The translations under genes were made by a program, and so were the position numbers. Positions 37,582 through 55,779 of a DNA stretch of 64,000 nt are shown here, in pieces (within the stretch, counting starts at the first letter, position 1; the number at the start of each line of letters is the position of its first letter). The stretch lies in the NCBI GenBank assembly GCA_900142905.1, contig FSRV01000002.1:4340001-4404000 (forward strand), given 5' to 3'. The notes below the pieces were generated by a model. The model did no database searches. It had not been told where the DNA came from and saw nothing but the letters and a program-made list of their open reading frames with translations. This DNA comes from Burkholderia sp. GAS332. GTDB lineage: Bacteria > Pseudomonadota > Gammaproteobacteria > Burkholderiales > Burkholderiaceae.

Positions 37582-38279
37582 GAAGAGTGGCTCCCCACGA
37601 ATGCCGTTACCAGCGACAGGTTTCTGAAGACCACTACAGCACGGTGAGGTTAGGGTATTCTATTTTACGTGGCCGCGACAACACCCGATGTCGGCTCAAT
37701 CCCTTGCCGTCAACCGGCCGCGGGCCCTCATTAAGGGAGTTCCGTCACAAGGAGAGCGATTGCCCGGCATGTACCAGCGCGACATCGATTGGGCGTGAGA
37801 CTTACCGCGTTGTCTGGTTGAATTCAGCGGCTTTTTGCATCGCAATATCGAGGCTCCCGCCTGCTCCAATAAACGCAGCATGGCTTCGAATCCCGGTAAT
37901 CCTTCAGCCGCGCGCGCTCCAGTTTTCACGATGACCTAAACCAGGACCTCGAGTTGCCCGTCAATTTCGTCTTGTGCTACCTCGAACAAGTGGGCATCCT
38001 CGTGCCGCGTAACCCCGTAAACACTAAGCCGGCGAACTGCTGCGGGTTTGGATGTTGCGCTTCGACCTCTGGGAATTGCAATTCGCGCTAACAACTTAGG
38101 GGTTACTTTGCATCCGAAGAACGGGGCCCATGCTGCGACGTAGCCAAGCACTCGCGAAATGGCCCCCCACGCGATTCGAACGAAATTCCGAGCGCGCTCT
38201 TCGAACGGCAAACTAGTCGATGGCCAAACGACTCCGTCGTCCGATAGCGGGGCCCGAACTTCATCCGTCAACCGCTCTA
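37582..38279. other. Gap with unassigned minus-strand open frame
   Basis: No supported gene. A minus frame at 37936-38271 (111 codons, with RRLSVYGVTRHEDAHLFEVA near its end) lies just downstream of the folD fragment on the same strand. It could be another decayed gene, but I recognise no family in it. Confidence 0.4.
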
Positions 38280-38620
38280 TCAGAATCTGACGTTTTGCGA
38301 GTGATGTTGCAAAGGGCCAAGCGTGACTCGTGCCCCGCGCATGATGTTCTGAAGATTAGCCACTCGAAACCCCGTTTGGTGACGCAGGCGCATGGTCGAT
38401 TGCACGATGCGCTGGTGGATAAGCGCACGTCGATGACTACCGCACCGGGTTTGAGCCGTTTCAGAGTCAACCAGGTTCGGCTTTCCCGCGGCAACCACAA
38501 GGATGTGGCAGCGAGTATGCGACTGCGTAGATCAGCAGCCTTCGCATGACAAACCGTCAACGTCGCTTTTCTTTGTAATGGCACCGGCGCCATTGGGTTG
38601 CCCACGATATTACTGGCATC
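38280..38620 (-). pseudogene. folD: FolD (methylene-THF dehydrogenase/cyclohydrolase) pseudogene fragment
   Basis: Minus frames read, in order, SNIVGNPMAPVPLQRKATLT, VCHAKAADLRSR, (shifted) ILVVAAGKPNLVDSE, (shifted) RLKPGAVVIDV, and at the end VTLGPLQHHSQNVRF. These match the C-terminal NADP domain of FolD: the SxxVGxPMAxLL loop, TVCHSxTxDL, DILVVAAGKPN, IKPGAVVIDVG and GVGPMT...LLxN. At least two frameshifts are needed and the N-terminal catalytic half is missing. FolD oxidises C1 units on tetrahydrofolate, a step often linked to demethylation pathways such as the one encoded to the right. Confidence 0.6.
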
Positions 38621-39128
38621 GACTCATAGCCTGCGTGGTTGATGCCATGCGCAACGCCAATCCTGCTTCCCGGTTCGGCCGGTCACGTTCGTCCGAAATA
38701 CGCGCTGACGGTGCCTTCGATCGTAATCTACGCGCCTATCCACCCGTGGTGCTGCATCTTCGGTTAGCGCGCCAACGCGGTCTCACTGCGGCATCGCCGT
38801 ATTCTTCACTTCGATGCCGCAAGACAAAAATTTCTCGAACTACACCCCTCTTAAATTCATCGGCAATCCCTTGCCGACGCTGATGTTTCGCCATCTCGCG
38901 CGCCGAATCAAAAGGCCTGAGGCTGCTTCGTCGTCATCTATGAAACTCCCTTTCTGCTGCGGGTTAAGGGCGAGCTCAAACACGAGCGTCCATCGATCAT
39001 TTATAAGGTCGGGCGACCTATTTGTATGGAGGATCAGCAATCCGCGATAACGTTGGTATTTCGCAGAATCACGAGAGTGGACGGGGCTATTTGGGTGTTT
39101 TCCCTAGTCCATATCTCTTATTTTTACT
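38621..39128. other. Gap, no recognisable gene
   Basis: Short open frames on both strands (for example 38840-39040 minus and 38814-39050 plus) match no family that I recognise. The stretch becomes AT-rich towards the promoter at 39129. Confidence 0.4.
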
Positions 39129-39158
39129 TTGACATAAGGTCGCGTGACCTTGTACTCT
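39129..39158 (+). promoter_or_regulatory. Promoter with TetR-type palindrome before the APC permease
   Basis: TTGACA (39129-39134) is a perfect -35. TACTCT at 39153-39158 is a possible -10. The near-perfect palindrome AAGGTCGCGTGACCTT (39136-39151) fills the spacer. The same core, AGGTCGCGTGACCT, occupies the spacer of the promoter at 52458 and a variant lies at 48489. Binding by the TetR protein encoded at 51515-52309 would block RNA polymerase. Confidence 0.65.
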
Positions 39159-39474
39159 GGGCGCATAGAGAATGTTGACGGAACCGGCTGCCGCCGCCCG
39201 AGAAGGACTCGTCGCCAGCTGAAAAAAATGACCCCTCTGTAGCTTATTGCGGGCAACTTGGGGGCGAAAACATTGAGTAACGGATAGCTCCGACAGTGGC
39301 GCTTTTTATGTGTCGAACGGATCGGTACTAGGGAAGGTAAGGCTTGACACGCGCGCGAGCGGCTTCTATCGGGTCCATGCCAAACCCGGCTCGAGCCAGA
39401 TCGTCGGAGATAGCCTCCAGGGCGATAAGCCTGCACATAGACGATGATAAACATACGATTTGAAGGTGAGCTTT
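39159..39474. other. Leader of about 310 bases between promoter and permease start
   Basis: No gene is supported between the promoter at 39129 and the permease ATG. A 16-codon ATG frame near 39172 is too short to judge. This may be a long untranslated leader, or a remnant of a lost first gene. Confidence 0.4.
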
Positions 39475-40914
39475 ATGGCCCCCGTTGCAAATAGTGGACC
39501 GAAACTTCGAAAGGAAGCACTCGGACTTTTCTCCATCGTCTCTGCGGTCATTGCGACGAATGGCCCGCTCACAACGCTCGTGGGCGGCGTCCCTATCGCT
39601 TTGGCAATGGGTAACGGCCCTGGCTTGCCGGCGGTTTTCCTAATCGTTGGATGGGCATATATCCTTTTTAGCATCGGCTTCACCGCGATGAGTCGATACA
39701 CGACAAACGCTGGTGCTTTCTATGCATACATTGCTAAAGGGCTTGGGAGACCGTGGGGCGTCGGTGCTGCCTTCGTCGCGATAGTTTCATACAACTCTAT
39801 GCAACTCGCGTGTTACGGGATGCTTGGGTACTTCATGGGGGCAGGCCTGCATGAATGGTTTGGTGTGTCTGTTTCTTGGTGGGTTTGCTGCCTGATAGTA
39901 CTCGGCATTATCTTCGTTGCTAGCATTAGCAACATTCAGATCAGTGGCCGACTTTTACTTTGCCTTCTGGCTTGCGAACTTCTTATCATTGTCGTATTCG
40001 ACGTAGCCGGTTTGTTGCATGGTGGCCCTGACGGGTATACGTTGGCATCGTTCACTCCACATGTGGTATTCACCCCAAGATTTGGAACGTCGGTGCTTTT
40101 CGTCGTCGCTTCTTATATGGGATTCGAAACGACTGCGATTTATGCGGAGGAGGCCAAAGACCCACGCCGCAACGTGCCGCGTGCGACGTTCATTGCGATT
40201 ATCACGATCATGCTTGTCTATACACTTAGCGTGTGGGTACTCGTCGTACTCTGGGGACCCAATAACGTGGCCGCCCAGGCAGGAAACAATCCGATAGTGC
40301 TGTGGTACGGGATGGCTGACCTCGTCGCGGGAAGATTTATCTCGAAGGCAATGTCAGTGCTGATGCTCACCAGCTTATTTGCTGCTCAGTTGAGTTTTCA
40401 TAACACGACTTCCAGATACATATTCGCTCTCGGGCGTGAACATGTCTTGCCGCAAGCGTTGGCGTGGGTGCACCCGACTCAACAGACACCAGTAGCTGCC
40501 TGTACCGTTCAAGCCGCTGCTGTCGCGATCGCGTTAGTTATGTTCGCGAAAGTAGGGGCGGACCCCATGAACGTTGTATTGCCATACACAGCGGCCTTCT
40601 CGACGATTGGCCTCCTAGGTGTTCAATGTCTTACGTCCATAGCAGTTGCAGCGTTCTTTCTGCGCGAAGTGCATAGCGAAAATATATGGGTTCGCGCCGT
40701 TTCCCCAATCCTCAGCTTGGGCGCACTGGGGTGGTTCCTCTCTATGGAGGTAACCCATCTGCCGCTCTTGACGGGTTCGAACTCGAGGTGGATTTTCTGG
40801 TTCCCTTATAGCATTGCCGCGCTTGCACTGTTCGGTGTCTGCTACGCACTGTGGCTTAGGGCGGCTCGACCAGACCGATATAGAGGGTTAGGCCGATTTC
40901 TCTACGAGGCTTAA
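39475..40914 (+). CDS. APC-superfamily amino-acid/amine permease
   Basis: This 479-residue inner-membrane transporter has about 12 hydrophobic segments. The opening LRKEALGLFSIVSAVIATNG and GGVPIALAMGNGPGLPAVFL are typical of APC TM1-TM2 (COG0531). YMGFETTAIYAEEAKDPRRN is the conserved TM6-loop motif. ATG 39475 follows AAGGTGAG; TTG 39460 is also in frame. It would import an amino acid or quaternary amine by ion symport. The TetR-type operator upstream links it to the Rieske and aldehyde-dehydrogenase genes. Confidence 0.9.
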   Translation: MAPVANSGPKLRKEALGLFSIVSAVIATNGPLTTLVGGVPIALAMGNGPGLPAVFLIVGWAYILFSIGFTAMSRYTTNAGAFYAYIAKGLGRPWGVGAAFVAIVSYNSMQLACYGMLGYFMGAGLHEWFGVSVSWWVCCLIVLGIIFVASISNIQISGRLLLCLLACELLIIVVFDVAGLLHGGPDGYTLASFTPHVVFTPRFGTSVLFVVASYMGFETTAIYAEEAKDPRRNVPRATFIAIITIMLVYTLSVWVLVVLWGPNNVAAQAGNNPIVLWYGMADLVAGRFISKAMSVLMLTSLFAAQLSFHNTTSRYIFALGREHVLPQALAWVHPTQQTPVAACTVQAAAVAIALVMFAKVGADPMNVVLPYTAAFSTIGLLGVQCLTSIAVAAFFLREVHSENIWVRAVSPILSLGALGWFLSMEVTHLPLLTGSNSRWIFWFPYSIAALALFGVCYALWLRAARPDRYRGLGRFLYEA

Positions 40915-41307
40915 GCGGGCGCGCGCCTAGGTGAGACGCAGTCTTGCAACGGAATGGCTGCCAATTCGAAAATCAAGAAACGGATATTGGAATAAATGAA
41001 GGCTTGAACGCGGCATGCGAAAGACTACTGGAAAGTGACAAAGTCGGAAAAATGAAGTGATGACGTAAGCTGAATGAGAATGATTGGAGTTTCCATAAAA
41101 ATATGGATGCCTAAATATATTGTTTATAAAAACGGATACATGAGAAATTTTTAATGCAGGAGTTGAAGAGGTGCATCGCGACAGGCATAAGCACGCAAAA
41201 AATCACCCTCGGTGATCCCGATAGATGCCTCTAAGCGAGGCCGAGATCAACAACACCATATCAACATGAAGGTCGCCAAAAGTATCTCTAGGCGATGGAG
41301 GTTTGTC
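40915..41307. other. 390-base gap, AT-rich
   Basis: No gene is seen. The stretch 41095-41155 is strikingly AT-rich for this genome and probably holds the promoter for the DUF1329 operon. No palindrome of the TetR type occurs here. Confidence 0.4.
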
Positions 41308-42669
41308 ATGCACATTTTTTTCAAGACAGGTCTTGCAGTTGCGTGCACGGCAGTGCTTGCAACAGCTTGGGCACAGTCGTCTGGAAATCTCACCATAGCC
41401 GGTGCCGATAAGGCGGCGAGCGCTGATGGGCAGATTCCGGCATATGAAGGTTCTGAGGCTGCTCCGGCCAACTGGTCCCCAGGTAAGGTGAGAGGCGAGT
41501 ACTGGCGCTATAAGTCTGAAAAGCCGCTTTTTTCAATCACTGCGGCGAATGTCGACAAATATGCCGATAAGCTGTCGCCAGGCCAGATCGCGCTATTTAA
41601 GCAGATCAAAAACTATCAAATGGATGTGTATCCGACTCACCGCGATTGCGGTTTTCCTGATTGGGTGCAGGACAACATCAAGAAAAATCAACAGAGCGCG
41701 AAGCTTGACGCAAGCGGGGATCACTTGCAAAGCGCTGTGCTGCCAGGCCTGCCGTTTCCTGGCGCAAAGACCGGTCAGCAGGCGATCTGGAATTACTTAA
41801 CCAGGTATCGCGGTGTGGGCGTCGAGTGGTCGAAACTCAATACGCTGGTATCGCCTCGGCCGGGTAGTTCCGACTGGATCTCGGTGACGAGTCGCCAGAC
41901 CCTGTATTTCCCATGGGGCAAGAAGGGCAGCAACGCGCTGGCATCGGGAGAGGCGCTCCTGTCGGTGTATTTTACCTACAGTTCGCCGGCGGCCTTGGCC
42001 GGACAGGGTCTCGTACAAACGTTTAATTTTGCAAACAACGAAACACCGACGTTTTATTACTTTCCTGGTCAACGACGAGTTCGTCGGATGCCCTCTTATG
42101 ACTATGACGCGCCGCAAATCGGTTTTGAGAACCAGTACACGGTCGACGAACCTTGGCTCTTTAACGGCGACATCGACCGCTTTGACTGGAAGCTCGTTGG
42201 AAAGAAGGAGATGTACGTGCCGTACAACGATTTTGCTATCGGGGATTTCAGAAAGAGCACCGAACAGGTATTCAAGCCCGATCAAGTGGATCCTGCGGCA
42301 CGACGCTACGAACTGCACCGCGTCTACGTCGTTGAGGCGACTCTGAAACCGACTATGCGTCACGTCTCCCAGAAGAAGGTTCTTTACCTGGACGAGGACA
42401 CATATCTCGCATTGGCGGGTGAGGACTATGACGCGCAGGGCAAGTTGTGGAAAGCGAAGGAAGGTTACCCGGTCCCGATTTGGGAGCTGGGTGGAACTTG
42501 CGACGTAGAGCCCTTTGCGCAATACAACCTCGTCGCTGGTCGCTACGTGGCAGACCAAATGGCGATTGGCACCGGGGAGGACGCGCATTATTTCGAATCG
42601 TCGAGTGACCCGAGTTTCTCTTCGGACTATTACACGTCGGAAAACCTGAGATCCATCAGCGAACGCTGA
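41308..42669 (+). CDS. DUF1329 outer-membrane/periplasmic protein
   Basis: This 453-residue protein has a Sec signal peptide (FKTGLAVACTAVLATAWAQ). It spans the DUF1329 domain, a lipoprotein-carrier-like (LolA/LolB-related) fold. TLYFPWGKKGSNALASGEAL and KNQR-like FPGQRRVRRMPSYDYDAPQI are characteristic, as are KEMYVPYNDFAIGD and YELHRVYVVEATLKP. ATG 41308 has GGAGG 7 bases upstream, so the in-frame ATGs at 41212 and 41266 are less likely. DUF1329 genes commonly sit beside DUF1302 and RND genes, as here. Role unknown; transport of a hydrophobic compound across the envelope is a reasonable guess. Confidence 0.88.
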   Translation: MHIFFKTGLAVACTAVLATAWAQSSGNLTIAGADKAASADGQIPAYEGSEAAPANWSPGKVRGEYWRYKSEKPLFSITAANVDKYADKLSPGQIALFKQIKNYQMDVYPTHRDCGFPDWVQDNIKKNQQSAKLDASGDHLQSAVLPGLPFPGAKTGQQAIWNYLTRYRGVGVEWSKLNTLVSPRPGSSDWISVTSRQTLYFPWGKKGSNALASGEALLSVYFTYSSPAALAGQGLVQTFNFANNETPTFYYFPGQRRVRRMPSYDYDAPQIGFENQYTVDEPWLFNGDIDRFDWKLVGKKEMYVPYNDFAIGDFRKSTEQVFKPDQVDPAARRYELHRVYVVEATLKPTMRHVSQKKVLYLDEDTYLALAGEDYDAQGKLWKAKEGYPVPIWELGGTCDVEPFAQYNLVAGRYVADQMAIGTGEDAHYFESSSDPSFSSDYYTSENLRSISER

Positions 42670-42732
42670 AAGACTTACTGGATCAATGCACGCGAAGTAT
42701 GCGGTGACCAATAACGAAGTCGAGGAGAAGAC

Positions 42733-44562
42733 ATGAAAGCTACGGGAGTTGGCGTAACGGTATCCGTTTCGCTGGTGTTGCTAGGCACAATGTCGCTAGA
42801 CGCGAACGGGTACGAATTCTCGACTGGTTTTGGCGATCTGTCCGGTTCGCTGGTTTCGAATTTGACCGCGGGCGCTGGCATTCGCACGAAAGACCCTAGC
42901 TGCTCACTCACGGGCGACCCGAACGCATACGGTTGTGGAGCGGCGGCCAATGTCAACCAGTGGGGTTACGGGGACAACGGCGATCTGAACTACCGCAAAG
43001 GCCAAGCATTCAGCACCTACGTCAGCGCGACAAGTGAACTTTTACTGACAATGCCCAGCGAAGGCTACAAGTTTATGGTTCGCGCGACCGCCATGTACGA
43101 TTTTCTCGCCGGTGATACCGCGCGAACGCCGCTGTCTAGTACGGCGTCGGCACAGGTGGTCTATCCGGTACAGCTGCTCGACCTGTGGGGCGAGAAGGAC
43201 TTCACGCTCGACGGTCAGTCTGCGCACGTACGCCTCGGGAATCAGGTCATCAACTGGGGCGAGAGTTACTTCGCCGCAGGGGGTATCAATGCAACGAACT
43301 CCCTTGATATTCAGAAGATCTTGATCCCAGGGACGCAGCTCAAGCAAGCGTTGCTACCGGCCCCCATGCTGAGTTTTGCGGCCGGGTTGGGTAACGGCTT
43401 CAGCACAGAGGGTTACTATCAGTTTCAATGGAATGGCAACCGTTATCCGCCGGTGGGCACCTTCTGGTCGGTCAGCAACAACTTCGGGCGTGGTGCGCAA
43501 CCGACTACACTAAACTCCGGCAACTACAATGTGGGAGGTGTCGATTCGGGCACAATTGCTGGGCCGAACAGCGGCAATTCCTCCACCATCTCGGCAATCA
43601 ACACCGGCCTCGTGAACGGCCAGTATGCCGGTGCGCCATATAATTCGATCGGCATACCTGTATCCACTCAACTGCCTAGCGAGTACAAACCGCAATTCGG
43701 CCTGAAGTTCAACTACAAGCCGAAGAACGTCGACGCGAACTTCGGCTTCTACTACGAGAACTATACGGACAAGTCACCAGTGCTTTCGACGCTTGCGAAC
43801 GGCACGAGCCAGTGGTCGTATCTCGAGAGTCGTCAACTCTTCGGGGCGAGTGCGAACTTCGCGCTGGGCGATTGGGCAATTGGCACCGAAGTGTCATATC
43901 GTCCACATGACGCGGTCGCGTTGTCAGGCTGTTTCGGTGCGAGTGGGCCGCTTGATTCGAACACCAACGGAGTAAGCGGTATCAATTGTCAGCAATGGGA
44001 AGACAGGAAGAAGATCCAATATGACATCAACGGGCAGCTCAGCCTCACTCAGAGCGAGTACCCGTTCCTGAAGCTCATCCGTGCGGACATGGCCGTCTTG
44101 ACTGCCGAGTTGACTTGGATCTACTACCCCGGTTTGAGTTCGAGCGGCGTGACGCGGACGGTCGACGGCCAGAGTGTCACCCAGGTCCCCGCCGCTGGTT
44201 ATTTCGGATGGCTGAACAATGGATCTAGTCTAGGCTACCCGATTCTTGCGGCGCAAGGTACCGCGAGCTCAGTGGGTGCAACCGTGGACTTCAACTGGAC
44301 GTACGACGGAAGCCTGATCCCCGGCTGGCAGGTGACACCCGGTGTGACTTTCTCTGATGCTTTGTATGGCTACACACCAACGTTCTCGGCGAACTATCTG
44401 CAAGGTGCGAAATCGCTGAATTTCTACGTTCTCTTCAACCAAAATCCTACAGTCTGGCAGGCCGGTATCAATTTTACTGCGTTCTTCGGCGGCCATGACA
44501 CGGTTGGTCAGCCGTATGCCGACCGGAATTTCGTGGGGCTGTTCGCGACGCGCAATTTCTAA
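42733..44562 (+). CDS. DUF1302 outer-membrane protein
   Basis: This 609-residue protein has a short signal region and then an outer-membrane beta-barrel of the DUF1302 family: SGSLVSNLTAGAGIRTKDPS, QVINWGESYFAAGGINATNS and KPQFGLKFNYKPKNVDANFG, with the final RNFVGLFATRNF ending in Phe. The length fits the family, which is distantly related to FadL-like and porin barrels. It follows the DUF1329 gene by 63 bases and precedes the RND gene. Probably a channel for a hydrophobic or aromatic compound; direction not known. Confidence 0.88.
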   Translation: MKATGVGVTVSVSLVLLGTMSLDANGYEFSTGFGDLSGSLVSNLTAGAGIRTKDPSCSLTGDPNAYGCGAAANVNQWGYGDNGDLNYRKGQAFSTYVSATSELLLTMPSEGYKFMVRATAMYDFLAGDTARTPLSSTASAQVVYPVQLLDLWGEKDFTLDGQSAHVRLGNQVINWGESYFAAGGINATNSLDIQKILIPGTQLKQALLPAPMLSFAAGLGNGFSTEGYYQFQWNGNRYPPVGTFWSVSNNFGRGAQPTTLNSGNYNVGGVDSGTIAGPNSGNSSTISAINTGLVNGQYAGAPYNSIGIPVSTQLPSEYKPQFGLKFNYKPKNVDANFGFYYENYTDKSPVLSTLANGTSQWSYLESRQLFGASANFALGDWAIGTEVSYRPHDAVALSGCFGASGPLDSNTNGVSGINCQQWEDRKKIQYDINGQLSLTQSEYPFLKLIRADMAVLTAELTWIYYPGLSSSGVTRTVDGQSVTQVPAAGYFGWLNNGSSLGYPILAAQGTASSVGATVDFNWTYDGSLIPGWQVTPGVTFSDALYGYTPTFSANYLQGAKSLNFYVLFNQNPTVWQAGINFTAFFGGHDTVGQPYADRNFVGLFATRNF

Positions 44563-44627
44563 TTCGCTGAGGGTAGTTTCATGATGCGCGCTTGCGCGCA
44601 TCAAGGACATCATTGAAGGATAGACTC

Positions 44628-46988
44628 GTGTTAAATCGCTTTGTAACTTGTCTCGAGAAACTGTTTTTCGGGCATCGTGCGATCGTGCTGGCGACGATCG
44701 GCATCTTCACCGCGATCATGGCGGTGTTTGCTGTGCAACTGCGCATGGAGGCCGGGTTTGAAAAGCAGATGCCGATTGGCCACGAGTACATCCAGACGTT
44801 CCATAAATATCGCAACGACCTGTTCGGCGCGAACCGTATCACGGTTGTGGTGCGCGCGCGCAATGGGAATATTTGGACCCCTCAGGGGCTGACGCGTCTG
44901 TATAAGGTGACACAGGCGGTGATGTTTCTACCCAACGTCGATCGGCAGGGTGTGCAATCGTTGTGGACGCCAAACGCTTTCGTCAACGAGATTACTGAGG
45001 ACGGCTTTCGCGCCAACCCTGTCATCGATGGGACGATTACACCGGATCAGTTGACACCCAAAATTGTACGGACGGTCCGGCAATCCGCAACGAACGGTGG
45101 CTACATCGGTACGCTCGTATCGCATGGCGAGGACAGCGCGATGATTACTGCAGAGCTGAACGAACGCGATGCAACGGGCAAGGTACTCGACTACGTGACG
45201 TTCAATCATCTGCTGGAAAATCAGATACGCAAGCCGTTCGAAGATGCCGGGTACGAGATCGAGATCATTGGCTTCGCAAAACAAATCGGCGATATTGCGG
45301 ACGGTGCGACGGCTGTACTCGGATTCTGTGGGATTGCGTTATTGCTGACTGCACTTGCTGTGTACTGGTACAGCCATTCGATTCGTTTCACAGTTTTGAC
45401 TCTCGCTTGTTCGCTAACCTCCCTCGTATGGCAATTTGGGACACTAAAGCTGCTCGGTTTCGGCTTAGACCCGCTTGGTGTGCTGGTGCCGTTTCTGGTG
45501 TTTGCAATTGGCGTGTCGCACGGTGTCCAGCAGGTCAATTACATCGTACGTGAACTGTCCCACGGTCATGACTCACTCGAGGCCGCACGTCGCAGTTTCA
45601 GCGGTCTCCTGATACCTGGCGTACTGGCGCTGATCACCGCCTTCGTTTCCTTTATCACGCTGCTGCTGATTCCTATCCCGATGGTTCGAGAACTTGCGAT
45701 CACTGCATCATTAGGCGTCGGATACAAAATCGTAACAAACCTAGTCATGCTACCCGTGGCTGCGTCTTGTTTTAACTTCACAAAAGCTTATGCCGACCGT
45801 GCGCTCGATAAGGGGGAGCGCCGTTCAGCTTGGTTACGCGGGCTCGCACGGGTAGCCGAGCCGCGAAATGCCTATATTGTGGTTGCGGTAACGGCGCTCG
45901 TATTTGTGCTTGCTGCATGGCAAAGCCGCGATCGTGTGATCGGAACGCTTCAGCCAGGCGCCCCGGAACTTAGGGCCGACGCGCGCTTCAACCGCGACGC
46001 GGTGTCTATTTCGACCAATTACGACGTGGGGCTCGACTGGCTAACGATCGTCTTCGAGTCCGCAGGTTCTGCCTGCGACAATCCCGCCGTGGGGCTGTTT
46101 GAAGACGACTTTGCGTCGTCCATGGCGAATGAGCCGGGTGTCGTTTCGGTGCAGTCTTACCCGGCAATGCTGCGGACTTACAACGAAGGCTATAACGAGG
46201 GCAATCCGAAGATGAACGTAGTGCCAATCGACCCTGGCAATTATGGAGGGCTCTCGGCCGAAATCGGCCGCGTTAAAGGGTACATGAATAAGGATTGCAG
46301 TATGACTGCGGTGCATCTGTTCCTTGCTGATCATAAGGCGACGACGCTCAACCGCATCATCGACGATGTCAAACAATATCGTGCATTGCATCGCATCTCT
46401 GGGGTAACCATCCGGCTCGCTGCGGGAAATGCAGGTGTGCTCGCGGCCACCAACGACGAGGTGGCGAAAAGCGAGTTGCCGATGATGATCTACGTCTACG
46501 CAGCAATCCTGATACTCGTGTTCCTCGCGTACCGGGACTTGCGCGCGATGGTGGCGTGCTGCGCGCCGCTGACGGTGGCAACCTTTATCGGCTACTGGTT
46601 CATGAAGGAACTACAGATCGGGTTGACGGTGGCAACACTTCCGGTAATGGTGCTTGCAGTGGGGATCGGCGTTGACTACGCGTTCTACATCTACAATCGT
46701 CTTCAATTGCATATGGCAAACGGCCAACCAATTGTGAAGGCTGTTGAGCACGCGATGCTCGAGGTTGGCGTTGCCACGATTTTCACTGCAATCACACTTT
46801 CGATTGGTGTTGCCACGTGGAGCTTTTCTGCACTGAAGTTCCAGGCCGACATGGGCAAACTTCTCGCATTCATGTTCATCGTCAACCTGGTGATGGCAAT
46901 GACGGCACTCCCGGCGCTCGCTGTTTTGCTAGAGCGCTGGTTTCCGCGCCGCAAACCCGTCCGCGCACCGGGTCTACTCAGCCACTGA
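44628..46988 (+). CDS. RND/MMPL-superfamily transporter
   Basis: This 786-residue inner-membrane protein has the two-half RND layout. TM1 at about residues 13-33 is followed by a periplasmic loop, five TMs (for example FCGIALLLTALAVYWYSHSI), TM7 near 410, a second periplasmic loop and five more TMs, with GIGVDYAFYIYNRLQ as the conserved motif. It resembles the hydrophobe exporters of the MmpL/HAE-3 group. The GTG at 44628 is preferred, with AAGGA 7 bases upstream; the ATG at 44592 lies in the upstream hairpin. It may act with the DUF1302/DUF1329 proteins as an envelope transport machine. Confidence 0.88.
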   Translation: MLNRFVTCLEKLFFGHRAIVLATIGIFTAIMAVFAVQLRMEAGFEKQMPIGHEYIQTFHKYRNDLFGANRITVVVRARNGNIWTPQGLTRLYKVTQAVMFLPNVDRQGVQSLWTPNAFVNEITEDGFRANPVIDGTITPDQLTPKIVRTVRQSATNGGYIGTLVSHGEDSAMITAELNERDATGKVLDYVTFNHLLENQIRKPFEDAGYEIEIIGFAKQIGDIADGATAVLGFCGIALLLTALAVYWYSHSIRFTVLTLACSLTSLVWQFGTLKLLGFGLDPLGVLVPFLVFAIGVSHGVQQVNYIVRELSHGHDSLEAARRSFSGLLIPGVLALITAFVSFITLLLIPIPMVRELAITASLGVGYKIVTNLVMLPVAASCFNFTKAYADRALDKGERRSAWLRGLARVAEPRNAYIVVAVTALVFVLAAWQSRDRVIGTLQPGAPELRADARFNRDAVSISTNYDVGLDWLTIVFESAGSACDNPAVGLFEDDFASSMANEPGVVSVQSYPAMLRTYNEGYNEGNPKMNVVPIDPGNYGGLSAEIGRVKGYMNKDCSMTAVHLFLADHKATTLNRIIDDVKQYRALHRISGVTIRLAAGNAGVLAATNDEVAKSELPMMIYVYAAILILVFLAYRDLRAMVACCAPLTVATFIGYWFMKELQIGLTVATLPVMVLAVGIGVDYAFYIYNRLQLHMANGQPIVKAVEHAMLEVGVATIFTAITLSIGVATWSFSALKFQADMGKLLAFMFIVNLVMAMTALPALAVLLERWFPRRKPVRAPGLLSH

Positions 46989-47017
46989 CGATACGACTTA
47001 ACTGCAAAGGCCTTGCG

Positions 47018-47992
47018 ATGATGAAGAATTTTCTTGTCTGTGCAGCATTGTGCTGCGTGAGCGCCACCGGTCTTGCGCAGTCGGGGGGCGCGGCGACACC
47101 ATTTGCGGTCACATCGGCGCACATCTGGGTTGATCCAACGCACGCCATGTTGCTTGACGCTGCGCATGCCGGTACGCGGATCGTCGCTGTTGGCGAGCAC
47201 GGCATCGTGCTGCTATCCGACGATGACGGTCGCACCTATCGACAGTCGGCGCAAGTTCCGGCGTCCGCGACACTTTCATCGGTATATTTCGCTGATGCGC
47301 AACATGGCTGGGCCGTGGGGCAATGGGGTGTCATCCTTGCCACAACCGACGGTGGCGAGCATTGGACACTTCAACGCTCCGATACATCGATCGATCAGCC
47401 ACTCCTTTCGGTGTATTTCAAGGACCCCAGTCATGGGTGGGCGGTCGGAATCTGGTCTATTCTTCTAGCGACCAATGACGGCGGCCGCAATTGGCATACG
47501 TCCAAGTTGCAGCCGCCGCCCGGCGGGGGTAAGGCTGACCGCAACTTGTACAGAATTTTTGCCGATCACTCAGGCACTCTTTTCATCGCCGCAGAACAGG
47601 GCACTGTACTGCGATCGCGCGACGACGGCGCATCTTGGGAGTATCGTCAAGCCGGCAACAAGGGCAGTCTTTGGACGGGTGCCGTCGCGACAGACGGCTC
47701 GATATTCGTGGGTGGATTGCTCGGTCATCTGTACCGCAGCCGAGACGGAGGCGATACGTGGATGGCCATTGACTCGGGATCAAACGGGTCGATTACGGAT
47801 CTCATTGCGAACGGTGACGAAATCTTTGGCGTGGGGCTAGACGGCTTCGTCATTGATGGCACAACTGAGGCAACGCGCTTCACTTCGAAGCAGCGAAAAG
47901 ACCGCGCGGCATTGACCGCTTTAGTGATGCCGCGTAATGCCGGGCATGTGCCAGTCCTGTTTTCGGTGGACGGCATCCTCAAGGCCGAGTGA
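47018..47992 (+). CDS. YCF48/BNR-repeat periplasmic protein
   Basis: This 324-residue protein has a signal peptide (FLVCAALCCVSATGLAQS). A beta-propeller of repeated units follows: GEHGIVLLSDDDGRTYRQ, QWGVILATTDGGEHWTLQ, IWSILLATNDGGRNWHTS, EQGTVLRSRDDGASWEYR and LLGHLYRSRDGGDTWMAI. Each holds an Asp-box (S/T-x-D-x-G-x-x-W). This resembles YCF48, the photosystem II assembly factor. In heterotrophs YCF48-like genes accompany DUF1302/DUF1329/RND sets, as here. It probably assembles or binds the transport complex. Confidence 0.88.
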   Translation: MMKNFLVCAALCCVSATGLAQSGGAATPFAVTSAHIWVDPTHAMLLDAAHAGTRIVAVGEHGIVLLSDDDGRTYRQSAQVPASATLSSVYFADAQHGWAVGQWGVILATTDGGEHWTLQRSDTSIDQPLLSVYFKDPSHGWAVGIWSILLATNDGGRNWHTSKLQPPPGGGKADRNLYRIFADHSGTLFIAAEQGTVLRSRDDGASWEYRQAGNKGSLWTGAVATDGSIFVGGLLGHLYRSRDGGDTWMAIDSGSNGSITDLIANGDEIFGVGLDGFVIDGTTEATRFTSKQRKDRAALTALVMPRNAGHVPVLFSVDGILKAE

Positions 47993-48149
47993 CTGCGATG
48001 AATCCCGATAAGACCTGCTGGCTTACCGGTCAGTAATGGCCTAACGAATTTGCCTTTTTCAGACTTCATAGAATGACTCGGGGAACTGGGCAAGGATGCA
48101 TGCGTCAATGCCGTCGTCCTCCACCGTGCATCATCGCATGAACGAGATC
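47993..48149. other. Start of a 714-base non-coding stretch before the Rieske operon
   Basis: No gene is seen between the YCF48-like gene and the possible transposase relic. The whole stretch to 48706 holds only that relic and the operator at 48489. Confidence 0.4.
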
Positions 48150-48275
48150 TCATCCCGGTCGGCGATTGATGTGCGTCATTCCGTAGCCCACAGACCGCAA
48201 TACGCGGGCTGAGGGCATTTCAAGGCTGCCCGTCGTCTCCAACACGACGGAAGCGCCCGTATGTTTCGCGCCAGA
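48150..48275 (-). pseudogene. Possible IS110-type transposase remnant
   Basis: The minus frame reads VVLETTGSLEMPSARVLRSV followed by GYGMTHINRRPG and a stop. This recalls the conserved VLEATGGYE...NPRQ stretch of IS110-family DEDD transposases. Only about 40 residues are left and the flanks show no terminal repeats, so the call is tentative. Confidence 0.3.
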
Positions 48276-48470
48276 TGCCCAACCACCTTATCGATGCCCA
48301 TAGCGCCGTTCGGCGGGCTTCGTAGCGACGCATTTGGGTTTTTCGCTATGTTTCGCTTGGTCTTCGACTCGTCAACACGAATCGGACCTTAACGTCGTTC
48401 GACTGGTTGCTGATTTAAACAGCAAGGGTAATCACGAATGTGCCTGCACAACTTAGCGCTTGCTGAGAGA

Positions 48471-48509
48471 TTGAAAGAGTAGAATAATAGGTCACGTGAA
48501 CTAATGTGG
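48471..48509 (+). promoter_or_regulatory. TetR-type operator variant before the Rieske operon
   Basis: AGGTCACGTGAACT (48489-48502) matches the AGGTCGCGTGACCT palindrome found at 39137 and 52466 except for two bases, and keeps one arm intact. TTGAAA (48471-48476) and TAATGT (48502-48507) are possible promoter elements but the spacing is not ideal. It lies about 205 bases before the Rieske start codon. Confidence 0.5.
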
Positions 48510-48706
48510 TCGACTGGACGATCTGGTGCGAGACATACGCCATGATCGGGGAAAAGCTAGCGTCTCATGTTCTGGGCCAAATTTGTCCATACGTAACGGT
48601 GCCGAGCTTAATTCTGAGCGATCGAGTGGCTGTCCTGTTCAGAACCGTTTTCAGGTCAAGTAGCCCATTTTGTGGATGTGACACTAATCGATTTGATAGG
48701 CAAAAA

Positions 48707-49951
48707 ATGGAAGCATATTCGGAAAATGACGCGTTGGAAGATCAACTGATCCGTGGTCGTTCGCTGCCGCAAAGGTTTTATCAGGATGCGGAAATATTCG
48801 AGAAGGACATGCGGTTCATCTCCTCCAGCATGTGGCTCATGGTCGATCACGAAAGTCGTGTAAGGAACGCAGGTGACTTTTTTCTTGTAGAAATCGGCAC
48901 CGAAAGTGTGATTGTTGCTCGTCATGCAAGTGGAAAGATCAATGCGTTCTACAACGTATGCAGACATCGCGGCTCGAGAATCTGTCTGAAAGAGTCGGGA
49001 AATAGTCGTTCACTGGTTTGTCCCTACCATGCATGGACCTACGACCTGGAGGGAACCCTGCGTTCGGCTAAAAGTATGCCGGTCGGGTTCGACCCCGCCA
49101 TGAATTCGCTGATTCCATGTCATGTGCGTGTCGAGGAAGGGCTTATCTTTCTGAACCTTTCGAAAGAAGACGCTCCGGATTTCGATGATTTCTTTTCACG
49201 AGCGCGACCTTACCTTGTCCCTCATGGACTCGGAAAGGCGAAGATTGCTGCCAGTGAGAAGTACCCCACTATGGCCAATTGGAAGTTGCTCGTGGAAAAC
49301 TTCCTTGAGTGCTATCACTGCAAGGCCGCACATCCTACCTATTGCGCCGTTCATGACGCGGAAAAAATCGTCGCTATGGGAGCGGGAGCCGGCTCTGGCG
49401 ACGCAGTGGCAGGTCAGTTTCAGGCAACCTTCGAGAAATGGGAGGATAGCGCTCGGCGGTTGGGACACTTCACAGGCTCTTTCGCGGACGATACTGACTC
49501 CGTGAATTTCCAATCTGGGGCGCGAATCCCGGTAAAGGAAGGCGCGGTTACGGAGTCAATCAGTGGCGCGCAGGTCGGCCCATTGATGGGTGACTTCCAG
49601 CAATTCGACGGTGGGCAGACGGGTTTCGTGTTCAATCCTTTTAGTACCGTACTCGCCTGCAATGATCACGCCGTGATGCTTAGCTTCATCCCGCGCACAG
49701 CTCTCACGGCGGACGTGATAGCAATTTGGTTAGTCCGTGAAGACTCAGTACAGGGCACGGACTATGATCCTGAGGACGTCAAGAAAGTATGGCACGTAAC
49801 GCTGCAAGAAGACAAAACCATCACTGAGAATAATCAGCGGGGCGTTTCCTCGCGCGCTTATTCACCCGGAACGTATTCTCTGCAGGAGCAGCGTATTTCT
49901 GACTTTGTCGAATGGTATAGAGGCAAAGTCTGGGCAAAGAGTAATGCTTAA
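48707..49951 (+). CDS. Rieske non-haem iron oxygenase, alpha subunit (GbcA/CntA/Stc2 class)
   Basis: This 414-residue protein has a Rieske [2Fe-2S] site at Cys85-x-His87 (NVCRHRGS) and Cys105-x2-His108 (VCPYHAW). The catalytic domain has NWKLLVENFLECYHCKAAHP: His204 and His209 bind the mononuclear iron, and Glu201 takes the place of the bridging Asp of classical ring-hydroxylating dioxygenases. A bridging Glu is known from carnitine monooxygenase CntA and related quaternary-amine enzymes. The likely reaction is oxidative N-demethylation or C-N cleavage, releasing an aldehyde. The start at 48707 follows GATAGG; the open frame runs back to 48506 through the promoter. Reductase follows 18 bases downstream. 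Confidence 0.9.
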   Translation: MEAYSENDALEDQLIRGRSLPQRFYQDAEIFEKDMRFISSSMWLMVDHESRVRNAGDFFLVEIGTESVIVARHASGKINAFYNVCRHRGSRICLKESGNSRSLVCPYHAWTYDLEGTLRSAKSMPVGFDPAMNSLIPCHVRVEEGLIFLNLSKEDAPDFDDFFSRARPYLVPHGLGKAKIAASEKYPTMANWKLLVENFLECYHCKAAHPTYCAVHDAEKIVAMGAGAGSGDAVAGQFQATFEKWEDSARRLGHFTGSFADDTDSVNFQSGARIPVKEGAVTESISGAQVGPLMGDFQQFDGGQTGFVFNPFSTVLACNDHAVMLSFIPRTALTADVIAIWLVREDSVQGTDYDPEDVKKVWHVTLQEDKTITENNQRGVSSRAYSPGTYSLQEQRISDFVEWYRGKVWAKSNA

Positions 49952-49969
49952 AGTTCAGATGGGTGAGAG

Positions 49970-50932
49970 ATGAAGGTAATGCAGGTTCAAGTGATTGGCG
50001 TTGAGCGAGAGACGCCGACGGTATTGGCGATCAGGCTCAGGGGGCTGGATGAGCAGCCCTTGCCTCCCTTCGACGCAGGCAGCCATATTGACGTCTATCT
50101 TCCAAATGGGGTAGTTCGCCAATACTCACTTTGTGGCGACCCGACAGATTTGTCCGCATATACCGTCGCAATAAAACGCGAGGAACTGTCGCGAGGCGGC
50201 AGTGAGTTTGTGCACCGGTCGTTACGTGTGGGAGATGTCCTTTCGATTGGATACCCGCGGAACCTTTTCGGACTTGATGCAAATGCGACGAACCACGTAT
50301 TGCTTGCTGGCGGTATCGGCGTCACGCCTTTGATTTGCATGGCGTACACATTGTCGCGAGCTGAAAAGGCATTTTCACTTGCGTATTTCGTCCGCTCGGA
50401 GGAAGAGATCGTGTTTCGCACGCTTTTCGAGAGAGGTTCATTAGGCCAGGGTGTGAACCTTGAAGTTGGTTTGAGTGCGGAAGCAACAGCAGAACGAATC
50501 CGCGCAGTAGTCAGTTCTGCGGCTGCCGACACTCATGTCTACGTTTGCGGGCCGAAGGGCTTCCTCGATACGGCGGTGTCGATCTCCGAGGAATTTTTAC
50601 ATGAGAAACAAATACATTTCGAAGTTTTTGCTCCCCTTGCAACGCCTGATAGGCGGGAGCCCAGCAGGCCATTTGTAGTGCGACTGGGCCGTGATGGTCG
50701 GCAATTCACGGTGCCAGAAAACAAAAGCATCATAGACGTGCTTTCCCATGCTGGAGTGCAGATCGAAGCGGTATGTCGGGAAGGCGTATGCGGTACCTGC
50801 ATTGTAAGGGTCATCGATGGTGTGCCGGATCATCGGGACACGGTGCTAAGTGACGAGGAAAAAGCATCTTGCAAGAGAATGTGTGCCTGCGTGTCGCGAT
50901 CGAAATCCGCGACTATAACGATTGACTTTTAA
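49970..50932 (+). CDS. Rieske oxygenase reductase (FMN + plant-type [2Fe-2S])
   Basis: This 320-residue protein of the phthalate-dioxygenase-reductase type (VanB-like) passes electrons from NAD(P)H to the Rieske oxygenase. An FMN-binding barrel has RQYSL at residues 50-54. The NAD domain has AGGIGVTP at 113-120 and CGPKG at 183-187. The C-terminal ferredoxin domain has Cys269, Cys274, Cys277 and Cys307 (VCREGVCGTC, CACVSR). It lies in the same operon as the oxygenase (18 bases) and the NTF2-like gene (19 bases). Confidence 0.93.
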   Translation: MKVMQVQVIGVERETPTVLAIRLRGLDEQPLPPFDAGSHIDVYLPNGVVRQYSLCGDPTDLSAYTVAIKREELSRGGSEFVHRSLRVGDVLSIGYPRNLFGLDANATNHVLLAGGIGVTPLICMAYTLSRAEKAFSLAYFVRSEEEIVFRTLFERGSLGQGVNLEVGLSAEATAERIRAVVSSAAADTHVYVCGPKGFLDTAVSISEEFLHEKQIHFEVFAPLATPDRREPSRPFVVRLGRDGRQFTVPENKSIIDVLSHAGVQIEAVCREGVCGTCIVRVIDGVPDHRDTVLSDEEKASCKRMCACVSRSKSATITIDF

Positions 50933-50951
50933 CCGACGAGGAGCAACTGTG

Positions 50952-51332
50952 ATGAGTGAAATTGAAAGCACAAAGGCAGAGATTCGCGCTAAGTACGACT
51001 TTTTCGAACAGTGTGTTTCAACCAGGAACGTTTCAAAACTGCTTGAAGAGTTCTACTCGAAAACGGCGGTATTTGCGGGAAACGGAGGCCCTACCGTATC
51101 TGGCCAGGAGGAACTGGGCGGCTTTCTCACCCATGTTTTTTCTGAGGTTTTCGAGTCGATGAAAGTCGAACAGATCGAGACGCGAGTGTACGAAGGTAAT
51201 GTGGCGTTCGATTCGTCACTGGTTAGTGCGAAATACAAAGATGGAGCCGTTGGCACCCTGCGGACTTTCTGCGTGTTTCGAAAAATTGATGGTGAATGGT
51301 TCTGCGATGTGGACATAGCGCTTAATCCTTGA
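50952..51332 (+). CDS. NTF2-like/SnoaL-like small protein
   Basis: This 126-residue protein has the cone-shaped NTF2 fold: KYDFFEQCVSTRNVSKLLEE, FYSKTAVFAGNGGPTVSGQE, FVF-like FRKIDGEWFCDVDIALN. The family includes isomerases, polyketide cyclases and the beta subunits of classical ring-hydroxylating dioxygenases. ATG 50952 follows GAGGAG. It may be a small partner or a downstream isomerase of the Rieske system; the sequence alone does not decide. A terminator follows 26 bases later. Confidence 0.78.
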   Translation: MSEIESTKAEIRAKYDFFEQCVSTRNVSKLLEEFYSKTAVFAGNGGPTVSGQEELGGFLTHVFSEVFESMKVEQIETRVYEGNVAFDSSLVSAKYKDGAVGTLRTFCVFRKIDGEWFCDVDIALNP

Positions 51333-51357
51333 ACGCCGACGTTGTCCTAGAATCTTG

Positions 51358-51382
51358 ACGGAGCGATAAGCTCCGTTTTTTA
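51358..51382 (+). terminator. Rho-independent terminator of the Rieske operon
   Basis: ACGGAGC (51358-51364) pairs perfectly with GCTCCGT (51370-51376) over the loop GATAA, followed by a run of T residues. It ends the Rieske-reductase-NTF2 transcript. Confidence 0.85.
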
Positions 51383-51514
51383 TTGTGCCGTTGAAGCGAG
51401 TGACAGATGTCCTTAACGATCCGCGATCGGGATACGCGAATGTGGCTGCGCGTTCGGAGATATGCTAAATCAGCATACTCACCGGGCCACTTTGCGTGAT
51501 TTTTTGACTTGGAA

Positions 51515-52309
51515 CTATTTCGCTGCAGGGCGTGCTTCAGGCGCGGTCTTTCGGCGGTCGACTTCCTTGTGGGTCGCTGCAAGCGCGAGCGCCTTTACCG
51601 CACGGACGGCCTCATCTTCGATGCCCCGGATATCAGATGGAAACGAGTTGCGCTGGGGTAGGAGCACTAGCAGGCCGTCGAGCTGGCTAGTGATCAATGC
51701 GGCACGGCAGGATAGCTCGGTGGGCGTCAGACCTGGATTGACTGCCGCGATGAGTTCGCGAAAAACCTGACGTTGAAAAAAATACATTTCCTCTACGATG
51801 CGGCGTGCGAATTCATGAGTCTGCGCGAGAGCCCAAATGTTGATGAACAAACTTTGGGTTCGTCGCTGTTTGTCGTCTTCGATCAACAGGCGCGTGATTT
51901 TCTCTAGTCGAACTTCAGGAGACAGGTTTTTGTCGTTCCGTATATGTGCGTACCGCACTGAGTATTGCGCAACGACGTCCTGAATCAATGCCTCGAGCAG
52001 GTCTTCGCGCGTCCGGAAGTAGTGCTGCACGTTGGACAGCGAAAGCCCTACACCTTGAGCCACCTTTCGCATCGTTAGCGCGCCGTAACCTTCACTGATA
52101 AAGAGTTCAGTCGCGACCGCAAGTACCCGCGCGATCGTGGTACGTCCACGGCCTGTCGGTGGTCTTGTGTCAGCTGACCCATCCTCGACTGACGCGCTTT
52201 GAGACTCGCCGGCGATTGAGCGCGTCGATTTTCGTTTTGGCGCAAGAAGATCGTCGGGAGTCGTCTCTGGGTCAGACTTAGCAGTTGGGCGATGGGCCGC
52301 GTTATCCAT
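51515..52309 (-). CDS. TetR/AcrR-family transcriptional regulator
   Basis: This 264-residue protein has a disordered N-terminal tail of about 55 residues, rich in Asp, Pro and Ser. A TetR helix-turn-helix follows: FISEGYGALTMRKVAQGVGL then SLSNVQHYFRTREDLLEALI. Residues about 110-240 form the helical ligand domain. It is convergent with the Rieske operon and divergent from the aldehyde dehydrogenase, whose promoter carries AGGTCGCGTGACCT. TetR proteins usually bind such palindromes next to their own gene, so it probably represses 39475, 48707 and 52626 and is released by a pathway intermediate. Confidence 0.9.
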   Translation of the reverse strand: MDNAAHRPTAKSDPETTPDDLLAPKRKSTRSIAGESQSASVEDGSADTRPPTGRGRTTIARVLAVATELFISEGYGALTMRKVAQGVGLSLSNVQHYFRTREDLLEALIQDVVAQYSVRYAHIRNDKNLSPEVRLEKITRLLIEDDKQRRTQSLFINIWALAQTHEFARRIVEEMYFFQRQVFRELIAAVNPGLTPTELSCRAALITSQLDGLLVLLPQRNSFPSDIRGIEDEAVRAVKALALAATHKEVDRRKTAPEARPAAK

Positions 52310-52457
52310 ACTTTCTTCCGGTTGATTTGTAAACCTTTATTGTCGTCTCAAGTAGTGTGCGAATGCAAGCAGACCGAAGGGTGAAAGGCAATTTCGGGCG
52401 AATGTTGCAAGCGCGCGTACCATCAGTGGCATGGCGTTTCCCCTGGTGTTTGCTCAA

Positions 52458-52486
52458 TTGACAATAGGTCGCGTGACCTGTAACGT
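52458..52486 (+). promoter_or_regulatory. Promoter with TetR-type palindrome before the aldehyde dehydrogenase
   Basis: TTGACA (52458-52463) and TAACGT (52481-52486) are separated by exactly 17 bases. The palindrome AGGTCGCGTGACCT (52466-52479) fills that spacer. The arrangement matches the one at 39129. It lies 140 bases before the aldehyde dehydrogenase start and 150 bases before the divergent TetR start, where it could control both. Confidence 0.7.
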
Positions 52487-52625
52487 GTAAATAATCTGTT
52501 GTCTATATTTTGAATCGCCCGGACGCCAGTCACCTGTTTAGGCCGGCGCCCGTGATGCGTTGGCCTGTCGTCAAGCAACGATCTAGCCGTCGTCGTTGAA
52601 CGGCTTTGAAAGCAATAGAGGGACT

Positions 52626-54104
52626 ATGGACATACAAGAGCTCGTCTGCGGAATGCGGACAAAGATGTTTGTGGATGGCCGTTTCGTGGACAGCGTGTCC
52701 TCCGAAACTTTTCCCGTGTTCAATCCCGGAAACGGAGAGGAAATTGCGCAGATAGTCGATGCGAACGCCGAGGACGTTGACATAGCAGTGCGCAGCGCTG
52801 AAAGAGCATTCAAGAGCGACGAATGGCGCGGACTTCCCCCGGCAGCGAGAGAGCGACTACTGCTCAGGCTGGCAGATCTCGTCGAGCAGCATGGCGATGA
52901 ACTCGCTGCACTTGAGACCTTGAATCAGGGCAAGCTTCTAGGGTTCTCGAAAATGCTCGAAGTCGGAGGAAGTTCGCAGTGGCTCCGTTACATGGCTGGA
53001 TGGGCGACCAAGATTGAAGGTACTACGCTTGATCTTTCCTTGGCGTTTCCTCCGTCGGTTCGGTATCAAGGATCCACCCGAAGGGTTCCGGCAGGGGTTG
53101 TCGCCGCTATCGTACCGTGGAACTTCCCGTTGCTCATGGCAGTATGGAAGATCGCCCCCGCGCTCGCTTGCGGTTGCACGATTGTATTGAAGCCGGCGGA
53201 GGAGACGCCGCTTACCGCGATACGGCTCGCGGAGTTGGCGCACGAAGCGGGTATTCCGGCCGGCGTCTTTAACGTAGTCACCGGTCGCGGGGAAACGGCT
53301 GGCGCGGCACTGGTGCGGCACCCAGCAGTGACCAAGGTGACATTTACCGGTTCCACTGAAGTAGGTCGGATTATCGGCAGACAATGCGCCGACGACCTGA
53401 AACGCTGTTCCCTGGAGTTGGGTGGTAAGAGTCCGGTCATCGTCCTTGAAGACTGTGATAGTCGTAAAGCCATCGAAGGCGCTGCGAGTGCCATCTTCTT
53501 TAATCATGGCCAGGTCTGCACAGCTGGCTCGCGTCTGTATGTAGCACGGTCTAGATATGACGAAGTTGTTGCTGGCATTGCGGCGATTGCCGACGGTATC
53601 AAACTGGGGTCGGGATTTGACGCGAGTGCGCAGATGGGACCGATGGTATCGGCTCGACATCAAGACAAGGTTGTCGGAATGGTCAGGCAGGGTATAGCCG
53701 AGGGTGGTGAGATTCTCGCAGGCGCACAGATGGACGAATCGAGAGGTTTCTTCGTTAAGCCCGCTGTGATCAGCAACTATGAGGGAAAGCCACTTTCATT
53801 GGTACGGGAAGAAGTCTTCGGACCAGTCCTCGTTGCTATGCCCTTTGACGATATCGAAGAAGTGCTCGCCGAAGCGAACGACTCTCAGTACGGGTTGGGC
53901 GCGAGCGTGTGGACGAACCAGCTCGATAAAGCGATGTACTTGGTTGACAGAATTGAGGCAGGTACCGTGTGGGTCAACACTCACAATATGGTGGATCCAG
54001 CGATGCCTTTTGGAGGATTTAAGGCGTCAGGTATTGGGCGAGAACACGGGCGGGCAATCATCGACGCGTACACGGAGTCGAAATCGGTGTGCTTCGCGTA
54101 CTGA
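52626..54104 (+). CDS. NAD(P)-dependent aldehyde dehydrogenase
   Basis: This 492-residue protein of the ALDH superfamily has PWNF at residues 164-167 (with oxyanion Asn), FTGSTEVG in the cofactor loop, the catalytic base Glu264 in LELGGKSP and nucleophile Cys298 in GQVCTAGSR. PFGGFKASGIGREHG is near the end. It resembles betaine-aldehyde and phenylacetaldehyde dehydrogenases. It would oxidise the aldehyde from the Rieske reaction to an acid. ATG 52626 follows AGAGGGA; the ATG at 52596 has a weaker site. Confidence 0.93.
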   Translation: MDIQELVCGMRTKMFVDGRFVDSVSSETFPVFNPGNGEEIAQIVDANAEDVDIAVRSAERAFKSDEWRGLPPAARERLLLRLADLVEQHGDELAALETLNQGKLLGFSKMLEVGGSSQWLRYMAGWATKIEGTTLDLSLAFPPSVRYQGSTRRVPAGVVAAIVPWNFPLLMAVWKIAPALACGCTIVLKPAEETPLTAIRLAELAHEAGIPAGVFNVVTGRGETAGAALVRHPAVTKVTFTGSTEVGRIIGRQCADDLKRCSLELGGKSPVIVLEDCDSRKAIEGAASAIFFNHGQVCTAGSRLYVARSRYDEVVAGIAAIADGIKLGSGFDASAQMGPMVSARHQDKVVGMVRQGIAEGGEILAGAQMDESRGFFVKPAVISNYEGKPLSLVREEVFGPVLVAMPFDDIEEVLAEANDSQYGLGASVWTNQLDKAMYLVDRIEAGTVWVNTHNMVDPAMPFGGFKASGIGREHGRAIIDAYTESKSVCFAY

Positions 54105-55764: not shown

Positions 55765-55779
55765 AGCGGGAGTTTCGCG

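Follow-up and report, generated by a model that had tools for sequence, protein, structure and literature searches.

A TetR-family regulator and its probable AGGTC-N4-GACCT operator at Rieske oxygenase, exporter and aldehyde dehydrogenase genes of Burkholderia sp. GAS332

In a 64,000-nucleotide stretch of DNA from Burkholderia sp. GAS332, probably a soil bacterium (the window, C2:4340001-4404000; contig FSRV01000002.1 of assembly GCA_900142905.1), four palindromic sites of the AGGTC-N4-GACCT type stand before genes for a permease, a Rieske oxygenase and an aldehyde dehydrogenase, and the gene for a TetR-family regulator (51515..52309, minus strand) lies beside one of them. The rank of these sites under a matrix built from relatives, their rarity in the genome and the de novo recovery of the same palindrome from ten of ten relatives together indicate, at the level of sequence, that this TetR protein is very probably the regulator of the palindrome. 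We consider it highly likely that a local TetR repressor acting on AGGTC-N4-GACCT controls the permease and exporter genes, the Rieske oxygenase and the aldehyde dehydrogenase.

A preliminary description of this DNA had named three sites, AGGTCGCGTGACCT at 39137..39150 and at 52466..52479 and the variant AGGTCACGTGAACT at 48489..48502; all are present, and a fourth, AGGTCGGGCGACCT at 39006..39019, had been overlooked 131 bp upstream of the permease site. As described there, the sites precede the permease, the Rieske operon (48489 lies 204 bp before the Rieske ATG) and the TetR/aldehyde dehydrogenase region, where 52466 lies between the two genes; all four sites, for which no strand is assigned, are intergenic, and the neighbouring genes were confirmed by Pfam. 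The genome comprises three contigs (10.4 Mb), and the exact 14-mer AGGTCGCGTGACCT occurs at 2 places in its 10,416,547 bases, both in the window. AGGTC-N4-GACCT occurs at 6 places genome-wide, 3 of them within 13.5 kb here (39006, 39137 and 52466). The motif is not enriched across the genome, since reversed-pattern controls are higher (9 vs 6 places, and 90 vs 43 for AGGTCRNNYGACCT at one mismatch). In the window alone, 12 matches with up to three mismatches were found vs a shuffled mean of 6.9, an unimpressive excess that 5 of 100 shuffles reach, and the weight rests on the clustering and on the cross-genome tests.

A 26-bp matrix was built from 29 sites of relatives, taken from other genomes only and chosen by likeness to the window consensus, so that its rankings are partly circular. 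It ranks the four operators first to fourth in the window: 48489 is the best (24.0 bits), followed by the upstream copy before the permease at 39006 (22.8), 39137 (20.8) and 52466 (20.2), with the next place at 11.6 bits. The maximum in a same-genome background of 20 stretches of 20 kb (400 kb) was 14.8 bits. When all 43 one-mismatch places of the genome were scored (41 together, 48489 and 1637 within the window), the four window operators led and the next reached 13.8 bits; a wider regulon in this genome was rejected, no other place among the 43 being strong. The compact regulon proposed in the preliminary description is strongly supported by the comparison, with no comparable site found elsewhere in the genome; its exclusion of the DUF1329 gene set did not stand, as discussed below.

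The regulator, a protein of 264 residues, carries a TetR_N domain (PF00440, 41.4 bits vs a cut-off of 24) and was rightly described as the only TetR of the window, with one TetR_N match and no second TetR among 33 window open reading frames scanned against Pfam. A search with this protein at E 1e-15 gave matches in 56 of 299 genomes of the family, the window's own included. We took as orthologs those of 17 other genomes at 52-58% identity, leaving out matches at or below 36%, and read stretches of up to 20 kb around them; the loci include Caballeronia hypogeia, Paraburkholderia guartelaensis and Trinickia dinghuensis. For a de novo test, 900 bp upstream of the TetR genes of 10 relatives, hand-chosen from the 17 to drop near-copies, were searched for gapped palindromes with no input from the window. 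AGGTC-N4-GACCT was the top palindrome, present in 10/10 regions and tied with the one-base-shifted TAGGT-N6, and the best word in 100 shuffles reached at most 6 of the ten regions. This count is the independent, non-circular test of the pairing. A site of at least 15 bits is also found in 16 of the 17 TetR-ortholog loci, most of which had supplied training sites. Exact AGGTCRNNYGACCT occurs at 24 places in 18 TetR-bearing genomes of five genera, with 12 of the 24 within 14 kb of the TetR gene. The other 12, in 18 genomes, are close to the background of 10 places in 17 same-genus genomes without a TetR match at 1e-15. Exact AGGTCRNNYGACCT is missing from ten of these 18 genomes, whose sites are imperfect.

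The recognition helix points to a match between protein and DNA. LSN and QHYF are invariant in 18/18 aligned sequences, with S or A before and V or L between them, giving SLSNVQHYF in the window, L068, L069 and L092 and ALSNLQHYF in the other loci read. Perfect AGGTC/GACCT sites account for 11 of 13 with the SLSNV helix (window, L092, L094 and L095/L069) and 1 of 28 with ALSNL, counts that are not independent, as the relatives and their sites share ancestry. A tree built on the C-terminal domain groups the remaining three SLSNV proteins in a clade of their own, separate from the window protein (100/100); the SLSNV type needs two changes on this tree, and a single change suffices in 5% of 200 bootstrap trees.

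Both exact copies lie in a -35/-10 spacer, as had been claimed: TTGACA-N16-TGTACT at 39129-39156, the putative permease promoter, and TTGACA-N17-TAACGT at 52458-52486, each copy starting 2 bp past its TTGACA hexamer. Among 37 operators, 15 embed a -35/-10 pair of at least 9/12 vs a mean of 1.2 and a maximum of 5 with shuffled flanks, although the 37 include near-copies and, given shared ancestry, the 15 are not independent events. In several relatives the operator fills the hexamer spacer directly before tetR (for example TTGAGA-N17-TACAAT), which suggests autorepression. The window operator stands 156 bp before tetR, where no clear tetR promoter is seen. The 39006 palindrome itself scores as a weak terminator-like hairpin in a terminator scan.

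Downstream of the operators at 39006 and 39137, all on the plus strand, Pfam identifies an APC-type permease (AA_permease_2, 39460..40914, with an ATG at 39475 also possible), a DUF1329 protein (AmeB-like, 41212..42669), a DUF1302 protein (AmeA-like, 42733..44562), an MMPL/RND transporter (AmeD-like, 44592..46988) and a YCF48-like protein (AmeC-like, 46817..47992, its true start probably near 47017 judging from L080). The preliminary description had noted that the DUF1329 set has no palindrome of its own; no site of at least 10 bits lies in the DUF1329-DUF1302-MMPL-YCF48 stretch. The set had on that ground been placed outside the regulon, a view that we rejected on the operator placement in relatives. 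In 7 of the 17 ortholog loci the set and TetR fall within one stretch, and in 7/7 the operator stands before it or before genes leading into it: directly in L082, L084, L086, L094 and L095, before a LuxR gene leading into the set in L080, and before a permease and LuxR gene in L083. This argues that the window set probably belongs to the regulon as well. The window order is operator, permease, DUF1329, and the permease-DUF1329 gap showed neither an operator nor a terminator-like site; read-through from the permease promoter into the set is the simplest reading. Two DUF1329 sets that are not beside this TetR (L124 and the second set of L095) have no site. The LuxR-type regulator precedes DUF1329 at L080:11349-12077 and L083:6092-6832, and no LuxR trace is present in the window gap 40915-41211. 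L095 (1-16492) holds two nearby DUF1329-DUF1302-MMPL sets, with the operator only at the set beside an amine oxidase.

The Rieske oxygenase (48707..49951), also on the plus strand, is followed by its ferredoxin-NAD reductase partner (49970..50932) and a SnoaL-like protein (50922..51332), all identified by Pfam, and the aldehyde dehydrogenase (NF045735) follows TetR at 52626..54104 on the plus strand. The Rieske protein contains the cluster-binding motif C-x-H / C-x2-H (CRH...CPYH) and, near the iron, the bridging Glu and a Cys-X-X-Cys (ENFLECYHCKAAH); the iron-site motif ENFLECYHC, a group Va signature, provides the bridging Glu, the Cys pair and a Phe at the position of CntA 203. Phe occupies this position in 5 of 20 Rieske loci read (the window and four orthologs at 52-53% identity) and Asn in 15. 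According to PMC7948474, an aromatic residue at position 203, Phe in the case of OxyBAC, marks clade Va (carnitine, choline, benzalkonium), whereas Asn marks clade Vb (glycine betaine, stachydrine). In the bridging Glu, the Cys-X-X-Cys and the aromatic 203, the window protein resembles group Va CntA, choline monooxygenase and OxyBAC as these are described in PMC7948474 and PMC10952381. It differs in that, over the whole protein, Stc2-type chains (4qup, clade Vb) are closer to it than CntA is. Its top solved relatives by phmmer are 3n0q, 3vca and the Stc2-type 4qup, and it falls below the GbcA glycine betaine monooxygenase equivalog cut-off (NF058607, 313 vs 670). The protein thus carries the residue signatures of clade Va and would be an oxygenase of the quaternary-ammonium type. 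Phe 203 and the group Va motif point to a quaternary or N-methylated amine as substrate, yielding an aldehyde that fits the adjacent aldehyde dehydrogenase; the latter (open reading frame from 52596) is above the equivalog cut-off for StyD, phenylacetaldehyde dehydrogenase (NF045735, 902.5 vs 850). The link among uptake, oxygenation and aldehyde oxidation drawn in the preliminary description is kept, with oxygenation more aptly understood as the oxidation of an amine that is quaternary or N-methylated. Hordenine or candicine as the substrate would be a guess and is unsupported.

A comparison of the Rieske module across genomes suggests that its operator was replaced. The Rieske orthologs in G290, G122, G043 and G088 have no AGGTC operator: over the 1 kb preceding the reductase gene none of the four scores above 2.2 bits with the matrix, vs 24.0 before the window Rieske gene, and a one-mismatch core in G088 (L125:16343) scores -6.6. 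All four instead carry TATACCG-N6-CGGTATA, starting 34-36 bp before the called reductase start (L119:15950, L122:10806, L124:2185 and L125:16853). In 60 shuffles a word was shared by at most 2 of the 4 genomes. At one mismatch this second operator occurs once in each of the four genomes, before the reductase-Rieske operon, and at none in the window's genome, G189, G078 or G292, nor in the window at three mismatches; the reversed control gave 1 in G088, 3 in G078 and 0 elsewhere. In G290, G122 and G043 a gene 0.3-1.9 kb away from the Rieske gene encodes a second TetR-family protein with a C-terminal TetR_C_28 domain (identity to the G122 protein 70-71%), which we infer to bind TATACCG-N6-CGGTATA. 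At 1e-20 this protein found no match in G078, in the window's genome or in G088, the contig of which stops shortly after the Rieske gene. Both TetR genes lie on one contig in G290 and G122, 26-27 kb apart.

In four relatives (L081, L092, L094 and L095) the same AGGTC operator precedes a flavin amine oxidase that is accompanied by a c-type cytochrome. The best solved relatives of the L081 oxidase are named amine oxidases, and the closest chains are, we presume, of the NicA2 kind. The likeness to NicA2-like oxidases thus lies in the relatives' oxidase and cytochrome c under this operator; the window differs in having the Rieske system there, and no flavin amine oxidase was found among the 33 window open reading frames scanned. 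With an own operator elsewhere and, in three of the four genomes, an own TetR nearby, neither found in the window's genome, we lean, by a little, towards a replacement in which a quaternary-amine Rieske module lost its operator and nearby TetR and came under AGGTC-N4-GACCT. The relatives' regulon serves the non-homologous flavin amine oxidase with cytochrome c, so that regulator, operator and exporter would have stayed and the aldehyde-oxidising step been kept, with the entry enzyme exchanged. The direction of this change is suggested by four genomes vs one. Near the Rieske and DUF1329 genes, L120 885-12925 (G290) encodes a DAO-GcvT fusion, an OYE-type flavoprotein, GcvT, a formyltransferase-domain protein, an aminotransferase and UPF0261, a group that looks like a whole N-demethylation pathway; L121, L122 and L124 resemble it by eye.

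As we infer it, the TetR protein would repress locally, binding AGGTC-N4-GACCT as a dimer. It would occupy the -35/-10 spacer at 39137 and 52466 and lie close to the Rieske transcript start at 48489; 39006 may be an auxiliary copy or be left over from a divergent promoter since lost. TetR would be released by an inducer, for which an aryl-alkyl amine, quaternary or N-methylated, or the corresponding aldehyde is most likely. Release would switch on the permease and, by read-through, the DUF1329-DUF1302-MMPL-YCF48 exporter, as well as the aldehyde dehydrogenase and the Rieske oxygenase together with its reductase. The oxygenase is predicted to split a C-N bond, or to remove a methyl group, giving an aldehyde that the dehydrogenase would convert to the acid.

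Beyond the partial circularity of the matrix and the shared ancestry noted above, several observations weigh against this proposal. The L091 locus, with a partial TetR match, has no site of at least 15 bits, and L089 has a weak site only (18.2 bits). The -10 hexamers at 39137 and 52466 are poor to mediocre (4/6 and 3/6), shuffling gives p of 0.013 and 0.057 at the two sites, and a consensus scan called no promoter around either; at 39006 the promoter context is no better than in shuffles (p 0.17). At 48489 there is no clear forward -35/-10 spacer, nor had the preliminary description claimed one; the consensus scan called no forward promoter there either, and the best hexamer pair faces the opposite way to the Rieske gene. 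On the tree the SLSNV proteins cluster (9 of 500 shuffles are as low), and the window TetR is a long branch with a weakly supported fork, so that a single SLSNV origin is possible. The proposed substrate and inducer follow from family resemblance.

The half-site mismatch at 48489, its lack of a clear forward promoter and the absence of an AGGTC operator from the Rieske orthologs of four other genomes would all suit a regulator acting only on the permease and aldehyde dehydrogenase/TetR promoters, with 48489 a chance match and the Rieske operon controlled otherwise. We regard this as unlikely, given that 48489 is intergenic and with its flanks the best of the four sites, that 400 kb of the genome holds none of 15 bits or more, and that the module's other operator and nearby TetR are not found in this genome. 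It is very unlikely that the palindrome belongs to another regulator, a different TetR or a protein of another family, and that the adjacent TetR is a bystander. The genome does offer candidates, with 87 or more TetR_N matches (of 320 first-look candidates, 150 were scored), one of them 34% identical to the window protein; yet the palindrome follows this TetR subfamily into ten of ten dereplicated relatives with differing gene neighbourhoods, several place it between hexamers just before their own tetR, and genomes lacking this TetR show scattered single matches only. Chance likeness of short palindromes without any regulon would accord with the small excess of three-mismatch matches over shuffles in the window and with a motif rarer genome-wide than its reversed control, but it is contradicted by the matrix ranks, the 400-kb background, the scoring of the 43 places and the de novo palindrome, and we give it next to no probability.

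The repressor preferred here resembles the choline-binding BetI-type repressors in its TetR_N and TetR_C_6 (BetI-type C-terminal) domains, and in local control of uptake and oxidation genes, which we take to hold for BetI. It differs in lying below the BetI equivalog cut-off (TIGR03384, 50.7 vs 201.3). Among solved structures 45 distinct TetR-like sequences match it, the best at 45.2 bits. Pfam domains give the window an AmeABCD-type run of genes. According to PMC6394551, the AmeABCD exporter of Castellaniella defragrans, encoded next to a catabolic cluster, comprises DUF1302 and DUF1329 proteins, a COG4447 protein and an RND transporter of the inner membrane, and ameABCD deletion lowers monoterpene tolerance; the likeness is one of descriptions, known here from domains, with COG4447 equated with YCF48 by us. 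The systems differ in that C. defragrans handles monoterpenes and the window has amine-type enzymes and a TetR operator. Judging mainly from titles and abstract openings among the matches listed in the open-licence literature, we found no paper on the palindrome, no description of this TetR subfamily or of DUF1329/DUF1302 with this TetR system, and no account of a Rieske or amine oxidase with this TetR. The subfamily would gain a defined operator, a target gene set and a testable inducer class, and the DUF1329/DUF1302/MMPL exporter would be tied to amine catabolism. The regulator itself is of an ordinary kind; unusual is the apparent rewiring, which can still be read, with the before (a module with its own operator) and the after (the module under a foreign operator) both visible in living relatives. 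The pairing of two helix types with two types of site opens the protein-DNA match to direct testing.

Past the aldehyde dehydrogenase, genes for S-(hydroxymethyl)glutathione dehydrogenase and S-formylglutathione hydrolase (54508-56643), both above equivalog cut-offs, have higher third-position G+C and no operator. A 66-residue scrap at 38417-38614 (minus strand) matches the FolD-type proteins encoded in the clusters of G290 and G122 at 35-36% identity, that of G290 being THF_DHG_CYH by Pfam, and is perhaps the remnant of a lost neighbour; with relatives' locus and window proteins as the only queries, it was the sole remnant found of a lost divergent gene before 39006. Window positions 17304-34329 encode two IclR regulators, two DAO oxidoreductases and a hydantoinase A/B pair. 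From 36000 to 55000 the window has a G+C content of 50-59% per kb vs 61.4% in 400 kb of the same genome, and looks like acquired DNA.

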